35,944 nt of DNA from Candidatus Pacebacteria bacterium RIFOXYA1_FULL_38_18 (GTDB lineage Bacteria > Patescibacteriota > Microgenomatia > UBA1400 > PJMF01): NCBI GenBank assembly GCA_001787405.1, contig MFWV01000007.1, positions 79,694 to 115,637 on the forward strand, in the 5' to 3' direction. Shown here in pieces: positions 12,088 through 22,281 of the stretch. Each line of letters opens with the position of its first letter. The first letter of the stretch is position 1. The notes under the pieces were generated by a model. The model did not search any database. It was not told the DNA's origin and worked only from the letters and a program-made list of their open reading frames with translations. The translations under genes were made by a program, and so were the position numbers.

Positions 12088-13607
<1,520 letters not shown>

Positions 13608-13922: not shown

Positions 13923-13950
13923 ATTGTAACAAGATCCAGAGGAAAGTCAA
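13923..13950 (-). promoter_or_regulatory. Putative sigma70-type promoter of the 16S unit
   Basis: Minus strand TTGACT-N16-TACAAT, about 135 bp upstream of boxA; the -35 overlaps the mnmA 3' end. Confidence 0.75.
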
Positions 13951-15125
13951 AAGATGATTGCACCGCCCAAACACTTGTTTGGCTGATCGCTAGTATAGAA
14001 CACGGCTGATTGGCCAGCAGCTATTCCTTCAAGAGGTTGATTGAGTTTTATTTGAAAAGAATCAAGTTGCTTGATGATTGAACAGTCGACCAGTTTCCCG
14101 ATATTGCGAATGCGAACTTTTGGCTTGGTTTGTTTGAGTAATTCTTGCTCGGTTAGATTGATGAGTTGCAATTTGTCAACCAAAAACTCTCTAACTTCAG
14201 TGGCTTGTTTGGGACCAATGACTAATTGATTGGCAGTTTGGTTTTTTGCAATCACGTAAAGTGCTGGTAACTCACTTTTATCAAATTCTGCATGAAGTTT
14301 GGCATACTTTTTTTTATCAATGACAAAGCCGTGACGTTGGCCGATAGTGTGGAACCAGAGTCCTCTGTGTTGGCCGACCACTCTTCCCTGTTTATCAACT
14401 ATTTCACCAGGATTTTCGCCCAGATTTTTTTTCAAAAATTTGGGGATGTTGATGTCACCCACAAAACAAATACCGACCGAGTCTTTTTTATTAGCCACTG
14501 GCAGTTTGGCTTGCTCTGCGATTTTGCGCACCTCCAGTTTGGTTAGTTCAGCCAAGGGAAACAGTACGCGGGCTAATTGTGCTTCCTTAATTTCATAGAG
14601 AAAATAGGTTTGATCTTTGGCAGTGTCTTTGGGTATATACAAACACTGACCATCAGTATCCGCATAGTGGCCAGTGGCGATGGCGTCATAGCCTCGTTTC
14701 ATGGCCCAGTCATAAAACAAACCGAACTTGATAATTTTGTTGCACATCACATCGGGATTGGGAGTGCGACCGGCTTGATATTCGTCCAGAAAATATTGCA
14801 TCACTTTTTCCCGATAAGGTTTTTTGAAGTCCAATACTTGAAATGGTAAATTCAATTGAAGAGCAATCTGCAAAGCATCTCTGCGGTCTCCCTCAGCTCG
14901 ACAACCAGGCTCGCTCCAACATTCTATGTAAGCAGTTTCCACCTGATAGCCCTGTTTTTTTAAGAGAATTGCCGCCACTGCAGAGTCTACTCCTCCGGAA
15001 AGACCGAGTAATATTTTGGTCGGTGGTTTGCTGATTAACTTATTTTTCACTGCAGTTATTATACTGGTGCTTTGTGAAAATAACTCATTTTGAGTTTTGC
15101 TGCTAAGTTCTACGCACTCTTGCAA
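13947..15125 (-). CDS. mnmA: tRNA-specific 2-thiouridylase MnmA
   Basis: LLGLSGGVDSAVAAILLKKQGYQV PP-loop, TPNPDVMCNKIIKFG, ATGHYAD, KDQTYFLY, GQRHGF. Confidence 0.95.
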   Translation of the reverse strand: MQECVELSSKTQNELFSQSTSIITAVKNKLISKPPTKILLGLSGGVDSAVAAILLKKQGYQVETAYIECWSEPGCRAEGDRRDALQIALQLNLPFQVLDFKKPYREKVMQYFLDEYQAGRTPNPDVMCNKIIKFGLFYDWAMKRGYDAIATGHYADTDGQCLYIPKDTAKDQTYFLYEIKEAQLARVLFPLAELTKLEVRKIAEQAKLPVANKKDSVGICFVGDINIPKFLKKNLGENPGEIVDKQGRVVGQHRGLWFHTIGQRHGFVIDKKKYAKLHAEFDKSELPALYVIAKNQTANQLVIGPKQATEVREFLVDKLQLINLTEQELLKQTKPKVRIRNIGKLVDCSIIKQLDSFQIKLNQPLEGIAAGQSAVFYTSDQPNKCLGGAIIF

Positions 15126-15154: not shown

Positions 15155-16117
15155 CTAAATAAAGAAGTTGGTTTCGGCAATCAATCGCACTTGGCGCTGA
15201 TATGCTTGTGGATTTTGGGTATAAAAAATAGGCAAAATTGGTTGAAAATCTGGGTTGAGTTCTTTTGCTCGGTCAATGTCTTGCCAAGAAATTTTACCAA
15301 AATAAAGTTCTTTAATGGGGAAATCATTATTGATCAAAAATTTGGTAATTTCTGCCAAGCCTTCAAAATAAACCAAGTCTTTAGTGAAACCACCGGGCTG
15401 GCTGGTGTCCGTCAAACCTCTTTTCTTTTTGAAAGTCATGGCAAAGGCGCGTTCTTCATCTGTAATATATTGGCGAATAAAATGCCAGATTTCCAAGAAA
15501 GAACTAGTTTGGGCTTGTTGTATTGTCAAATAATTAATAGCTGCTAGATAAGCGATTGGATCAGTTTGAGGTAACAAAGAATGAATAGAAGCCAATCCCT
15601 CTTCGGTTTTGATATATGGAGAAAAACCAAATTTTCTTTTCTTTTTATACCAAGGTTGCTGAAAATAGTTGAGTCGACGCAGAGCGTGAGTGCCAAGCTC
15701 GTGATAAATCAATCCTGTCAAATCCTGTTCTCGAATAAGACAGGGCAAACGCAGTTTAACAAGATTTTCATCAGTAACAGAAGCACGACTGACGAATTCT
15801 TCAGACCAAACCAAAGAAATTTGGGTTTCCAAATGATGAGCAGCAATAAAATCTTTAATGGCTTTTGTAACGGTAGCTTGATCAAGAAGTGGACCTCGAC
15901 GATTTTCAAATTCTTCAGGAGTAAACTGAGAAGAAGCGGTGTCAAGTATTTGTTGCGCCAAACTTAAATAGTTTGTTGAAGGCAAACCTTTACTAAGTAG
16001 TTCTTCGGTAGAAAACTGTCTAACATAACGAAACTGTGGATTAAAATTGGGGTTAGCAAGAAATTGGTTTTTTTGCTCCTGATAATTAATTGGATTGAGA
16101 TCAGAAATTAATCCCAT
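15155..16117 (-). CDS. DUF1704 / MATCAP-like (QEGLA-type) putative metallocarboxypeptidase
   Basis: LIYHELGTHALRRLNYFQQPW...KTEEGLASIHS: HExxxH plus downstream EEGLA as in the DUF1704/MATCAP family. Confidence 0.85.
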   Translation of the reverse strand: MGLISDLNPINYQEQKNQFLANPNFNPQFRYVRQFSTEELLSKGLPSTNYLSLAQQILDTASSQFTPEEFENRRGPLLDQATVTKAIKDFIAAHHLETQISLVWSEEFVSRASVTDENLVKLRLPCLIREQDLTGLIYHELGTHALRRLNYFQQPWYKKKRKFGFSPYIKTEEGLASIHSLLPQTDPIAYLAAINYLTIQQAQTSSFLEIWHFIRQYITDEERAFAMTFKKKRGLTDTSQPGGFTKDLVYFEGLAEITKFLINNDFPIKELYFGKISWQDIDRAKELNPDFQPILPIFYTQNPQAYQRQVRLIAETNFFI

Positions 16118-16122
16118 GATTT

Positions 16123-17403
16123 TTAACTTGGTCGAATGACAAAACCCGACAAATCCTTTCGGCCAATTTCTACTTTTTGAGAACTAGTGTTCAGTTTTTT
16201 GGAAACAATCATGGATGTGCTAATTTTTCTGCCTTTTAATCTGAATTTTACTTCCACCACTGGTTGTTTTCCCTCGCCAGCTATTTGTTGGAACCAGAGC
16301 AAATCATCAACATCAATCAATCCTAGTTTTTTTACCAATTGGCTGGCAATTGCAGAGCGAAAACGACCAGTATTAATCAAAGCTTTAGCTTCTTCTTTCA
16401 ATCCCTCTTCACCATAAACAGTAACGGTTTCTTCGATTTCCAAAATGGGTATTTCTCCCTTACCGCTAATCTTATCACTAAAGTTTTCAGCGAAAAGAGC
16501 TTGGCCAATGCGCATGCCGTGATCAGCATTGAGAACATTGAGATCTTGTACTCGTTCAATTCTGCGCCGTAAGCCAGCTTTATTAGCCACTTGAATGGAG
16601 AGACCTGGATAAGCATTCAGCTCCACCACCATGGGGCCTTTGGTTTTATGAATAAAAAGATCTACGCCGGTATACATTAATCCAGCTGCACGAGCTGCTT
16701 CAATGGAAGTTTTTAGTAATTGATTCCAAAAAGGAATACGAATGCCATTAAGTTTTAACTTGGTTCCAGGTATGTATTGAATGAGTTGATTTTTGTGTTC
16801 TACACCGTGAGTGGTAATACCAGTGGCGATATCAATGCCGGTCATGATGGCTCCCTGGCTGATGTTGGCTCTACCTCCCGATTCTTCAGTTGGCAAACGA
16901 AGCTTGGCCATAATGGGCACGCTGTTGAAAACAATTACCCTCACGTCAGGGGTGCCTTTGAAAGTGTATTTTAATAATTTGGGATGAATGGGTATTCGTT
17001 CTTCAATGATGACGTTATGATTGGAACCATGAGTGCTGTATTGACCTGACAGAGTATCTTGGCAATGTAGCTTAATATCTTCCAAACTCCAGATTTTACC
17101 AACCACATCGGTCCAGTGTTTTTGATCGGCATGTTGTTTGCGAAAAGCCACTACCCCCTTGCCAGCATGACCATTGGTGGGTTTAATTACGAAGTCTTTT
17201 TTGAGGCTGACCCAATCAAAATCTTCCACATCTTCGGGAGTGCCAAGAATGGCATAAATTTTGGCGGTGGCAATATTTTTGCTTTGTAAAAGTAGCTTGG
17301 TGGCGTATTTTGATTTACAGATTGCTCTAGCTCTAGGAGAATTAAGCGGTACGAACAGCTGGTTGCGGGCATTCATGCCCAATATTTCATTTGCCTGTAC
17401 CAT
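16123..17403 (-). CDS. RimK-like ATP-grasp (alpha-L-glutamate ligase-like) fused to C-terminal retropepsin-like (RimB/Zn_protease family) domain
   Basis: ATP-grasp motifs FVIKPTNGHAGKGVV, VIIEERIP, GVDLFIHKTKGPMVVELNAYPGLSIQ; C-terminal AKALINTGRFRSAIAS...IGRKDLSGFVIRPS resembles the DTGA...LGR.dL domain. Confidence 0.85.
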   Translation of the reverse strand: MVQANEILGMNARNQLFVPLNSPRARAICKSKYATKLLLQSKNIATAKIYAILGTPEDVEDFDWVSLKKDFVIKPTNGHAGKGVVAFRKQHADQKHWTDVVGKIWSLEDIKLHCQDTLSGQYSTHGSNHNVIIEERIPIHPKLLKYTFKGTPDVRVIVFNSVPIMAKLRLPTEESGGRANISQGAIMTGIDIATGITTHGVEHKNQLIQYIPGTKLKLNGIRIPFWNQLLKTSIEAARAAGLMYTGVDLFIHKTKGPMVVELNAYPGLSIQVANKAGLRRRIERVQDLNVLNADHGMRIGQALFAENFSDKISGKGEIPILEIEETVTVYGEEGLKEEAKALINTGRFRSAIASQLVKKLGLIDVDDLLWFQQIAGEGKQPVVEVKFRLKGRKISTSMIVSKKLNTSSQKVEIGRKDLSGFVIRPS

Positions 17404-17412
17404 GGGCCTCCT

Positions 17413-18339
17413 TTATTCTTCTTCAATGATGGATTGAAAACGAGTTCTCTCCAATAAACGCAATCCTGTATATTTACCTACTAACAAATTGATAGTAGCT
17501 ACTCCCAACAAACTTAATTCTGGATAAAGTAATACGAATTGTTGAATGATTTCCAAGTTGATTAATAAGGCACAGCCAACCGCGATAATCAATGTTTCAA
17601 AAGTAATACTTAAGGCCTCTTTTTGACTACTAAAAAGTTGAGTACTCATGAAATTTTCGGTGAGCAACATCACAATTAACAACGGGAAAATATTAAGAGT
17701 CAATAAAGAAGAAAAGCCGAACCAAGATGAAGCGATTAATAGAGCGGTGATTAAAAAACTGACTACCCAAAGAACCATGGCAGTTCTGGGTAAAAATGGC
17801 AGTTTTAGGTGTCGTACAATCAATCTAGCCAATGAAGAAGCAATCAAGACAGCAATGAAAATAATTAAACCGGCGGCAATACCGGTTGAGACAAAAGCGA
17901 CTGAAAGTACGGCCGGAATGTAAACACCAAAACCCTTGAGTCCTACTACATGTCTAGATGCAGCAATGATGGAGGCAATTAGCGGAAATAATAACAATAA
18001 AACCAAGATATTGGCTGGTAAACCATTGGCTACTGCCTGACGAATAGCGTGCTGAAGTGGATTATGCCAAGTAAGAGATCCAATGGGGTGTTCGTCAAGA
18101 AAGGCGGTTAGTTTACTTTTTTTACTGCCACCGGTTTCGGTAATATCTTGATCTTTTTTATCTTGCAAACGCTGCTCTGCTTCCGCTGAGGCAGAAGCCA
18201 AACTACCTTCAGTAGCTTCTGAAGCAGGCGAAGCATCTAGAGATTGTTCAACAGAATCAAGATTTTGGGCGATAACGGGCTGAATAAAAACCATCAAGCC
18301 AGTGCCAATTACCAATAAGCTTAAAAGAAATTTTTTCAT
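17413..18339 (-). CDS. 7TM_transglut-like membrane protein (UUP1-type 7TM module without the fused transglutaminase domain)
   Basis: Signal peptide, acidic/Ala-Ser linker, then polytopic region with ILVLLLLFPLIASIIAASRHVVGLKGFGVYIPAVLSVAF; adjacent to the ATP-grasp gene as in known neighbourhoods. Confidence 0.75.
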   Translation of the reverse strand: MKKFLLSLLVIGTGLMVFIQPVIAQNLDSVEQSLDASPASEATEGSLASASAEAEQRLQDKKDQDITETGGSKKSKLTAFLDEHPIGSLTWHNPLQHAIRQAVANGLPANILVLLLLFPLIASIIAASRHVVGLKGFGVYIPAVLSVAFVSTGIAAGLIIFIAVLIASSLARLIVRHLKLPFLPRTAMVLWVVSFLITALLIASSWFGFSSLLTLNIFPLLIVMLLTENFMSTQLFSSQKEALSITFETLIIAVGCALLINLEIIQQFVLLYPELSLLGVATINLLVGKYTGLRLLERTRFQSIIEEE

Positions 18340-18424: not shown

Positions 18425-18787
18425 TTAAAGTACAAATGCCACAAAAGATTGCACCAAGCCGATCAAGATAGAAGCCAGTAAAATTGAAAAGAATTGATTG
18501 AGATGTATTCCCATTACCACCATGTTGGTAATTTGAAAACCCGGTACCAGGTAAGTAACCAACCAAAGCAAACCGACATTGATCACTATCGAAAATAAGC
18601 CAAGAGTCACAATGTTAATTGGTAAAAATAATAACTTGACAATGGGCCGAACAAATTGATTGACTAGCACCATTACGATACTAGCCAAAATAAGAGTGGT
18701 CCAATCACCAATATTGATAGTGGGCAAAAAATAAGACAAAATCCACAAACTAGTGCCAGTCACAATAAGTGGTTTGAGTAGTTTCAT
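18425..18787 (-). CDS. Phage holin family 4 (PF04020)-like small membrane protein
   Basis: 120 aa, four TM segments, LVNQFVRPIVKLLFLPINIVTLGLFSIVINVGLLWLVTYLVPGFQI. Confidence 0.8.
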   Translation of the reverse strand: MKLLKPLIVTGTSLWILSYFLPTINIGDWTTLILASIVMVLVNQFVRPIVKLLFLPINIVTLGLFSIVINVGLLWLVTYLVPGFQITNMVVMGIHLNQFFSILLASILIGLVQSFVAFVL

Positions 18788-19190: not shown

Positions 19191-20546
19191 TTATCGTAAA
19201 AGTTGTTTAGTGTGTCTTCTGGCGAATTGCTGTTTGGCAAATCGATGCGCCTCATCACGAATTTGGGCAATTAACTTGAGAGTGGGATGATTTGTTGGCA
19301 GTTTCAAGATTTCATAATCAATTTTTTTTCCCTCTTGTTTGGTAGGAATAATTAAACGATCTGGATTTTTGGCAATGCCGATAACTGGATTGTTCCACTG
19401 CCAAACTTTCAAAGCTGCTCTCACCTGTCCTTTTCCTCCATCAATCACCACCAGACTTGGTTTTTTCCACTCGGGATGATTTTGCCGGCGCTGTAAAGCC
19501 TCTTGCAACATTTGATAATCATTGGGAGTGTTTAGGGTGTAGATATTGAATAAACGATAGTGTTGTTTTTTGGCTTGACCAGCCATAAAAACCACCATAC
19601 TAACGGCTGCATTTGTGCCCTGAATATTACTAACATCATAGCCTTCAATGCGGGTGAGTTTAGCCGTGCGAGGAAAATTGGTATAGGTTTGTAAGATTTT
19701 TCGCAATTCTGTCAAACCTTGCTGGGCTTGTTCCATGCCAAAGCCAGGCAATACTAAAGCAGGAGCTAAACGGTATTGTTTATGAGTAACTTCTTCGATC
19801 AGTTGAATTTTTTGTTTATAAAGTTGGGCTTTTTCAAATTGTTGTTGTTTGGCCGCCTGTTTCATTTTGGCGATTAAGTTTTTGACGATAATTCGCTTTT
19901 TACCACGCAAAAATAAAATTAAAGATTTGATGTTTTCTTGATACTCATTCGCTGTAATTTGACCTACACAAGCTCCTGGACATAAATCCAAATGATAATA
20001 AAAACAAGGACGATCGGTTTGAGGATGAGCGCACCAAGGAAATATTTTTCTGGTAATTTTCAAGACCTCATTCAATTTGGCGCTACTAGGAAAAGGTCCT
20101 AGAATCGTGCCTTTTGGTTTTTCTTTAATTAAATCTGACTTTCTTTTTTTGATAACGCGCGGAAAGGTTTCATTACTAATTACTAAATAAATTGGAGATT
20201 TGTCATCTTTCAATCTGATGTTAAAAAATGGCTGATGAACACGAATTAATTCTGCCTCAATGAGTAGAGCTTCCAGTTCACTATCTAGAATTTCAAACTT
20301 GAGTTGTTGAGCAGTGGTGACTAGTTTTTTGATCCGCGGAGCCAATTGATCGAACTGAGTGTAATTTGCGAGACGATTCTTGAGATTTTTGGCTTTACCA
20401 ACATAAAGGATTTCACCGTTTTCGGCGAAAAACGAGTAAACTCCCGGCTCCGAGGGCCAAGAGGATGCTGCCTGCGACCAAACCAATGAGGGTGTACGGG
20501 TGCGCAACATACTGGACAAATTGGGGGGCGTTTTCAATTTCGACAT
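19191..20546 (-). CDS. uvrC: UvrC-like excinuclease subunit C, short form (start uncertain)
   Basis: GIY-YIG PGVYSFFAENGEILYVGKAKNLKNRL, UVR region, RNase H-like YDVSNIQGT / VVIDGGKGQ / RDEAHRFA; stops directly after that domain. Confidence 0.92.
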   Translation of the reverse strand: MSKLKTPPNLSSMLRTRTPSLVWSQAASSWPSEPGVYSFFAENGEILYVGKAKNLKNRLANYTQFDQLAPRIKKLVTTAQQLKFEILDSELEALLIEAELIRVHQPFFNIRLKDDKSPIYLVISNETFPRVIKKRKSDLIKEKPKGTILGPFPSSAKLNEVLKITRKIFPWCAHPQTDRPCFYYHLDLCPGACVGQITANEYQENIKSLILFLRGKKRIIVKNLIAKMKQAAKQQQFEKAQLYKQKIQLIEEVTHKQYRLAPALVLPGFGMEQAQQGLTELRKILQTYTNFPRTAKLTRIEGYDVSNIQGTNAAVSMVVFMAGQAKKQHYRLFNIYTLNTPNDYQMLQEALQRRQNHPEWKKPSLVVIDGGKGQVRAALKVWQWNNPVIGIAKNPDRLIIPTKQEGKKIDYEILKLPTNHPTLKLIAQIRDEAHRFAKQQFARRHTKQLLR

Positions 20547-22281
20547 GATCTACAAAAACTTCTTGTTCATTAACTTTAATATTGATGGCTAGTTGATCTT
20601 TTTCTGGCCAAGCATTGTTCATATTATAAACAAAGATTGAAATCGTGACTGATTGATAAGGTAGTAGGGCGGGAATGTCAGTAGCTCCAAAAACTCTCAC
20701 TTGAGAATTTTCTGAAGAAAGATCAAAGCTGATGTTATACCAAGCTGCCCCCGTAGGATTTTCTATATTGACGTTGTAAAAGCCGGGCAAAATAGAAAAA
20801 TTGGAACGTTGAGGAGTGATTTTGCCTATTAATTCTGGTGCTTGATTGGGAAAGCGAGTGCCAAAACTTACTTCCAAAGTTTTTTCTGTTTGTTGCTCGT
20901 TTTTATAAGAACCGGCTGGATAAGGCAGATTACTGGATTGGCCGTTAATAGCTAAAACAACGTGATTGAGGTCAAATTGATTAAAATAATCAACACCACC
21001 AGTAGTGTTTCCCCAAGTAGGATCGACTGGTTGCCAATTTCCAGAATCTTCATTCCAAAATTCTGGCCAAGCATGCAAAATATCCTCCACTAAACTCAAA
21101 GGTCGCAAACGACTATTTTCTGTATAAGCGTAACCAGTAATCAAGCGAGTGGGAATATTATTTGCTCTAGCCAAAGTGATAAATAAATCAGAAAATTCTT
21201 GACAGGCAGCATCTTCTGGATTACTAAGTGCTTGTATGGCTCCTTGTCTTTTCAGTTGATCTAGAGATTCAACGTTTTTATAAATCAAATTGTTGGTAAC
21301 AAAATCATAAATAGTTTTGGGAGTATTATATTCTTGAGCTAATTGTTGAATGGTGTGGTGATTAATGTCCCAAAAAGGTTGGGCTTGAATGTGAAAGTCC
21401 TGAGGTTGAATGACAGGTACCATTTGATTTTGTTCCAAAGTCAAGACCACAGTGGCCGCAGCTTCCACTGTCTGAGCAGTATTGCCACCCAAATAAAAAG
21501 TGGCAATCCAGTTACCATCTTTGTCGCGTTCTATGTTTTCTGGTCTTGGTTCGATTTGTTCATAATTCAGACGTTGAAAAGGAGTATCCGGAGGGAGAGC
21601 TACTTGCAACAAGACTGGCTGAGAATCATTGTTTTCCAAAAAATAACGAAACTTCAAATCAAAAACTTGCTGAAAACCATAAATAGCCGAAACACCTTGT
21701 CCATGAAGATCATTGAAAGTGAGCGATACTTGCTGATTGCGGTTGTTAATACTGTAATTGCTGTTTGGAGTTACCCTAGTTGGCTCGCCATAAAGCAAAG
21801 GAGAATTAAGGACAACAGTGATTTGATCATATTGTTCAGGATCTGCTTGTTTGGGAATAGCTACTTCCAGAACCTGACCATGAATTTGAGCTAGGTCAGG
21901 ATTGATATAGGTAATCGTAAATTGTCGTATCTTTCCTTCTCCGACCAATTGATTGGGAAAAGTAATCCCAATATTGGTTTGGTTGTCGGTTTGAGTTACT
22001 TCTGCCGGAATTTCTCCACTGCTATCAGAAACTCTGACACTCTTGATATTGGGCGAACTGATACGTAAACCATGACGATTGACGAAATAAGTGGGAGTCA
22101 GATTTTTGATGGTAAAAGCATGCTGAACCAATACTTCTCCATTATTTTGCACGGTATAAGTGCTAGTGAGGGTATTTTCAAAAGATTTGGCAGTTTCTTC
22201 TTGAGCTAATACAGTAAAGGGAATAAATAAAATTAAAAATAAAAACAAAAAATGAACTATCAATTGATAAATTTTTTTCAT
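20413..22281 (-). CDS. Secreted/membrane-anchored transglutaminase-like protein
   Basis: Signal peptide; EDAACQEFSDLFITLARANNIPTRLITGY...HAWPEFW...WQPVDPTWG gives Cys-His-Asp; C-terminal TM plus RRKR. Confidence 0.88.
   Translation of the reverse strand: MKKIYQLIVHFLFLFLILFIPFTVLAQEETAKSFENTLTSTYTVQNNGEVLVQHAFTIKNLTPTYFVNRHGLRISSPNIKSVRVSDSSGEIPAEVTQTDNQTNIGITFPNQLVGEGKIRQFTITYINPDLAQIHGQVLEVAIPKQADPEQYDQITVVLNSPLLYGEPTRVTPNSNYSINNRNQQVSLTFNDLHGQGVSAIYGFQQVFDLKFRYFLENNDSQPVLLQVALPPDTPFQRLNYEQIEPRPENIERDKDGNWIATFYLGGNTAQTVEAAATVVLTLEQNQMVPVIQPQDFHIQAQPFWDINHHTIQQLAQEYNTPKTIYDFVTNNLIYKNVESLDQLKRQGAIQALSNPEDAACQEFSDLFITLARANNIPTRLITGYAYTENSRLRPLSLVEDILHAWPEFWNEDSGNWQPVDPTWGNTTGGVDYFNQFDLNHVVLAINGQSSNLPYPAGSYKNEQQTEKTLEVSFGTRFPNQAPELIGKITPQRSNFSILPGFYNVNIENPTGAAWYNISFDLSSENSQVRVFGATDIPALLPYQSVTISIFVYNMNNAWPEKDQLAINIKVNEQEVFVDHVEIENAPQFVQYVAHPYTLIGLVAGSILLALGAGSLLVFRRKR

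Follow-up and report, generated by a model that had tools for sequence, protein, structure and literature searches.

A putative variant of the rlo operon in a Candidatus Pacebacteria genome, with a MATCAP-type metallocarboxypeptidase beside a ligase-fused, degenerate retropepsin domain

Results

Gene content of the locus

We analyzed a window of 35,944 nucleotides from the genome of Candidatus Pacebacteria bacterium RIFOXYA1_FULL_38_18 (G000; 0.83 Mb, 96% complete). Here, three open reading frames are found on the minus strand (18339-17413, 17403-16123, and 16117-15155), which encode proteins of 308, 426, and 320 amino acids and are separated by gaps of 9 and 5 nt. An earlier sequence-only reading had described these frames as a close-set unit followed by mnmA and had placed them in the 7TM, ATP-grasp, and DUF1704/MATCAP families; both the layout and the family assignments were confirmed. 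The mnmA gene (13947-15125, minus strand; PF03054, E = 1.5e-68) begins with a TTG start codon 29 nt beyond the MATCAP frame. Its distance to the operon is not constant among the relatives in our neighborhood comparison, and it is probably an unrelated housekeeping gene. About 340 nt downstream of mnmA there is a complete 16S rRNA gene (12088-13606, minus strand).

On the other side of the unit, the same strand encodes a four-TM protein (18425-18787; PF04020, E = 1e-24) and a membrane protein with a transglutaminase core (20413-22281; PF01841, E = 4e-18), in which the Cys, His, and Asp residues were found to be present by eye. In the family to which the window belongs, both proteins are usually encoded upstream of the operon. 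The transglutaminase-core protein is kept across the family and might correspond, in detached form, to the inactive transglutaminase that is part of Pseudomonas RloB. A role in anti-phage defence was rejected, with a PADLOC match for none of the four proteins tested.

The first gene of the unit (17413-18339, minus strand) encodes an RloB-like 7TM membrane protein (PF14402, E = 9.8e-29). The NCBIfam RloB model matched the C-terminal part of this protein only (E = 5.5e-19), and the N-terminal extra-membrane domain present in longer relatives is lacking. Whereas Pseudomonas RloB carries an inactive transglutaminase, no such domain is fused to the short window protein, and just its 7TM portion is matched by Pfam and NCBIfam. 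Long RloB proteins outside the class (L176:1632-3167; L226:561-2156) have a PKD domain preceding the 7TM part, and no transglutaminase was detected in them.

The ligase and its retropepsin-like domain

The second gene (16123-17403, minus strand) encodes an RloC-like ATP-grasp amino-acid ligase with a C-terminal retropepsin-like domain. The ligase part (residues 3-291) is matched by PF14397 (ATPgrasp_ST, E = 1e-57) and by TIGR02291 (E = 2e-69). The latter match leaves no doubt about homology, but its score of 234 bits is below the curated cut-off of 314.2 bits, which was passed by no member in the 287 genomes of the phylum; glutamate specificity is therefore an assumption. The match to the tubulin tyrosine ligase family was not significant (TTL, PF03133, E = 0.24), and a closer kinship with TTL than membership in the ATP-grasp superfamily was rejected.

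The C-terminal domain (residues 318-426; 16126-16452, minus strand) receives no Pfam call in the window sequence. However, it aligns with relatives that Pfam assigns to PF05618, PF13650, or PF13975, and its AlphaFold model (pLDDT of 87) was matched by Foldseek to DDI1 (E = 2.5e-5) and to RloA (9g58, TM 0.67). The retropepsin fold that had been proposed from the sequence is thus upheld. What had been missed is that the catalytic Asp is an Asn: alignment column counts indicated that DTGA is replaced by NTGR, so that the D-[TS]-G motif of clan AA, A2 is absent. When K46, R114, and R137 of RloA were placed on the alignment by their spacing in 9g58, a mapping made in this analysis, the window protein was found to carry Leu, Gln, and Lys at these positions. 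The D48N and D48A variants of RloA are inactive and have served as inactive control (PMC12239564, mBio 2025). With the catalytic Asp and most of the poly-Glu contacts lost, the domain is probably not a protease, judging from its residues. A separate gene of the RimB/RloA type (PF05618) was not found over the cut-off in the window's family.

The MATCAP protein

The third gene (15155-16117, minus strand) encodes a predicted MATCAP/DUF1704 metallocarboxypeptidase of 320 residues, which scored 89.9 bits against a PF08014 cut-off of 27 (E = 2.1e-25). Its HELGTH and TEEGLAS motifs are intact. In phmmer, it aligned with human MATCAP1 (7z5g) over the full length (E = 1e-40, 143 bits), and the structural comparison gave a TM score of 0.89 at 30% identity. 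The sequence-only reading had likened the ligase and the peptidase to the TTL/MATCAP pair of the tubulin code. For the peptidase this likeness is one of full-length homology, and for the ligase it is an analogy, in that the amino acid it adds would be one that MATCAP takes off. We know of no tubulin substrate in these bacteria and would expect none.

Conservation of the operon in relatives

Conserved co-occurrence of the three genes, which the earlier reading had made a point to be checked, was found. PF14402 is present in 40 and MATCAP in 39 of the 42 genomes of the family, and both are absent from G024 and G035. MATCAP lies close to the RloC gene in 35/40 family genomes and away from it in four (G013, G016, G017, and G041); in G006, a contig end cuts off the MATCAP side of the locus. 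The order and strand RloB-RloC-MATCAP are common to the neighborhoods we fetched, with gaps of mostly a few bases or overlaps. This arrangement recurs through 22 genera of the family and is thus not a product of chance. Named close relatives of the window MATCAP gene come mostly from metagenome-assembled genomes labelled Ca. Pacebacteria, Paceibacterota, Patescibacteria, or Microgenomates.

Within the class but beyond the family, MATCAP is rare: it was detected in 17 of 187 genomes of the class, nine of them members of the family. In these other class genomes, the genes that come after RloB-RloC often encode RimK-like ATP-grasp ligases in place of MATCAP. Across the phylum (287 genomes), MATCAP was found in 64 genomes, and in 52 of these PF14402 is present as well (Fisher p = 2e-22, kinship uncorrected). 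In 24 genomes of other lineages of the phylum (Peregrinibacteria, Peribacteria, and others) ligase, retropepsin domain, and MATCAP form a single protein of about 800 residues. This fusion and the strong co-occurrence make a shared ligase/peptidase function likely, as far as gene arrangement can tell.

Several clades have other neighbors. In one (f22; L176:1632-7318; L178, L180, L181, L182), RloB-RloC is followed by a protein of about 940 residues and the retropepsin domain is intact; on inspection, the protein of L176 resembles a class A penicillin-binding protein. In another clade (f30; L058:344-2535; L202:147-2344; L218, L220), MATCAP adjoins mreB (PF06723, E = 2e-127 in L202), and convergent RimK-like ATP-grasp genes are found there too. 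It is possible that MATCAP trims the tail of a bacterial cytoskeletal protein there. Two members of the window's family (L215, L217) have MATCAP off the operon and beside a membrane protein, which in L217 bears a Schlafen/AlbA domain (PF04326).

Loss of the retropepsin active site goes along with a linked MATCAP gene

We compared 132 ligases for the D[TS]G triad. Of the 67 that have a MATCAP linked or fused to them, 58 have lost it, and of the 65 without such a MATCAP, 61 have kept it (Fisher p = 1e-22, kinship uncorrected). The four unlinked losses are two genomes that have MATCAP elsewhere (G016, G017), one fused-type gene split in the assembly (G146), and one contig edge (G006). In 44 ligases lacking a MATCAP, position 46 is Lys or Arg, D48, G50, and A51 are invariant, and R114 and R137 are Arg wherever aligned. 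In the window's family together with G405, D48 is lost in 34/40 and K46 in 38/40 sequences (Arg in the other two), R114 is mostly lost, and A51 is always replaced by Arg. The fused clades have also largely lost these contact and catalytic residues (K46, D48, G50, A51, R114, R137), and NTG-R or NTQ-R with an adjoining MATCAP occurs in four genomes of neighboring families (G509, G510, G511, G518).

In the ligase-domain tree, the losses fall into about three separated clades, which are the family plus G405 (SH-aLRT 100) and two fused clades, a large one (97) and a small one (99). Independent events are therefore few and the association is suggestive only; the independent-pairs test of MATCAP against active-site loss, which corrects for phylogeny, did not reach significance because there were too few events. 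A fully intact retropepsin domain was found with a nearby MATCAP in seven genomes (G061, G062, G063, G116, G141, G144, G169), several of which carry distant MATCAP subtypes, so that both enzymes can coexist. The f30 clade keeps DTG and has its MATCAP elsewhere. Relative to the ligase, the conservation pace of the dead domain in the window's family (0.85) equals that of intact domains (0.84), which indicates that the domain is retained. The same ratio is 0.57 in the fused clade, where, unlike in the window's family, the domain is decaying by this sequence measure.

Discussion

Comparison with known systems

The 7TM, ATP-grasp, and retropepsin genes constitute the rlo operon of Pseudomonas (PMC12239564, mBio 2025). 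The window operon resembles it in encoding a PF14402 7TM protein, an ATP-grasp ligase, and a PF05618-type retropepsin together, and here too the 7TM gene adjoins the ligase gene. By sequence, it appears to be a variant of that operon, with an RloB-like 7TM protein, an RloC-like ligase fused to an RloA/RimB-type retropepsin, and MATCAP in addition. The Pseudomonas retropepsin is an active, secreted protein of its own, whereas in the window it is fused to the ligase and has Asn for the catalytic Asp; the Pseudomonas operon is without MATCAP. A second parallel is the pairing or fusion of an ATP-grasp ligase with a retropepsin in RimK-RimB and in the RimBK hybrid, which has the two parts in the opposite order and has been made and assayed (PMC11957791, JBC 2025). 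The RimBK protease domain is N-terminal and active, while that of the window is C-terminal and degenerate; moreover, the window ligase is of the TIGR02291 type and is accompanied by the 7TM protein and MATCAP.

Neither the single components nor the pairing of a ligase with a retropepsin are new, and with RimBK as precedent the fusion as such was rejected as a novelty. The earlier suggestion of an undescribed combination holds for the set of three genes, which, like the MATCAP-tied decay of the retropepsin and the fusions of ligase, pseudoretropepsin, and MATCAP, was not found in the open-access literature searched. To our knowledge, few bacterial proteins are known to be polyglutamylated.

Proposed function

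RimK adds glutamate, and RimB cuts poly-Glu and activates RimK (PMC11957791). RloA also cuts poly-Glu (PMC12239564), and the eukaryotic TMCP/MATCAP enzymes (TMCP1/2) take off C-terminal residues, Glu among them, and make poly-Glu chains shorter (PMC10499314). By analogy, the simplest model would combine a Glu-adding ligase with MATCAP as trimmer. We thus regard it as somewhat probable that the locus arose from an rlo-type one and encodes an add-and-trim system of the cytosol, in which RloC adds Glu-type residues and MATCAP has replaced the retropepsin as trimmer. This reading builds on the gene order, the co-occurrence, the fusion in other lineages, the active-site loss tied to a linked MATCAP, and the intact MATCAP motifs. 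Using ATP, RloC would attach glutamate, or an acidic residue like it, to an acceptor, either C-terminally or on a side chain, or would synthesize poly-alpha-glutamate. Glutamate is preferred over tyrosine since Glu is what RimK-type enzymes add and is also among the residues that TMCP/MATCAP enzymes take off (PMC10499314). MATCAP would shorten the chain from its end and so take over trimming from the retropepsin domain that has no catalytic aspartate. The dead domain may be kept as a structural or ligase-activating module, for which the activation of RimK by RimB offers a possible precedent of a non-proteolytic role (PMC11957791). RloB may anchor the unit in the membrane or let the product pass across it. 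We place the system in the cytosol because neither RloC nor MATCAP shows a signal peptide on inspection. Ribosomal S6 was rejected as acceptor, its C-termini in the family being variable and not consistently acidic where readable.

Somewhat unlikely, in our judgement, is a system without any protein tag, whose product would be a small free peptide or an osmolyte (poly-alpha-glutamate or a peptide of mixed composition), built by the ligase, trimmed by MATCAP, and exported by RloB. Both in vitro and in vivo, RimK together with RimB does form free poly-alpha-Glu (PMC11957791). The rlo operon has an effect on osmotic tolerance, and deletion of rloB or rloC rescues rloA mutants, which would fit a product that is made and exported (PMC12239564). 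The additional RimK-like ligases in the operons of many relatives also recall peptide-building pathways. However, with no apparent signal peptide on either enzyme, extracellular trimming of an exported product is not obvious.

We consider it unlikely that the system regulates peptidoglycan synthesis or cell shape by modifying a cell-wall enzyme or a precursor peptide. Pseudomonas rloA mutants have shape and antibiotic defects (PMC12239564), and relatives have a PBP1a-like protein after RloB-RloC (L176, with a same-size gene in L178 and L180-L182) or MATCAP next to mreB. Such neighbors are clade-specific, though, and neither gene is found at the window locus.

That MATCAP merely acts on another substrate, for instance by maturing RloC or RloB through C-terminal trimming, and that the retropepsin was lost by coincidence in a few clades is quite improbable: independent losses are few, some genomes keep both enzymes intact, and MATCAP lies elsewhere in a few family members (in L217 beside the Schlafen/AlbA-domain protein), but the substrate-contact residues decay along with the catalytic Asp in separate clades and the loss is accompanied by MATCAP fusion in two of them.

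That an unrelated enzyme seems to have taken the place of the first eraser, next to one and the same ligase, would suggest that the two erasers share a product, and it gives a short list of purified enzymes to assay. The sequences would also suggest that such a cycle, in which acidic amino acids are added and trimmed off, is ancient.

Relation to human MATCAP1

The window protein has in common with eukaryotic MATCAP/TMCP (7z5g) the HExxTH and EEGLA motifs besides full-length homology; it differs in being 320 residues long and encoded in an operon with a ligase. Its score of 143 bits against human MATCAP1 compares with 192 bits for G405, 131 bits for another family member, and 39-62 bits for three other MATCAP types of the phylum. 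It thus appears to be among the closest bacterial relatives of human MATCAP1 found here, where the genome-wide search was a single scan for one motif, which human MATCAP1 itself lacks. In trees with one eukaryotic sequence, which sits on a long branch, and with few bacteria from outside the phylum, human MATCAP1 fell inside the MATCAP clade of the window's order, where it joined G405 and relatives of G405 (100/100 with five of these). The AU test rejected the bacterial MATCAPs of the order as a clade excluding the human sequence at p = 0.032 (p = 0.069 with fewer sequences), for a group chosen after the first tree had been seen. We take a bacterial origin of human MATCAP1 as a lead from these trees. 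In the open-access papers, we found nothing direct on MATCAP in bacteria, on its horizontal transfer, or on DUF1704/QEGLA function. Tentatively, the tubulin-trimming MATCAPs of eukaryotes might descend from a peptidase that, in Patescibacteria, took over from a decayed retropepsin the task of erasing what an ATP-grasp ligase adds. Bacteria would then have a counterpart to the tubulin code with its pair of ligase and carboxypeptidase, and the eraser of that code would come from this or a close lineage. If human MATCAP1 does stem from here, the tubulin eraser would be of bacterial origin, with a candidate for its ancestral job.

MATCAP also occurs in a plasmid-borne Photobacterium protein (L303:3068-5053), where it is fused (E = 2e-109) to an N-formylglutamate amidohydrolase domain (PF05013, E = 3e-14). 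This domain combination may be another glutamate-related link.
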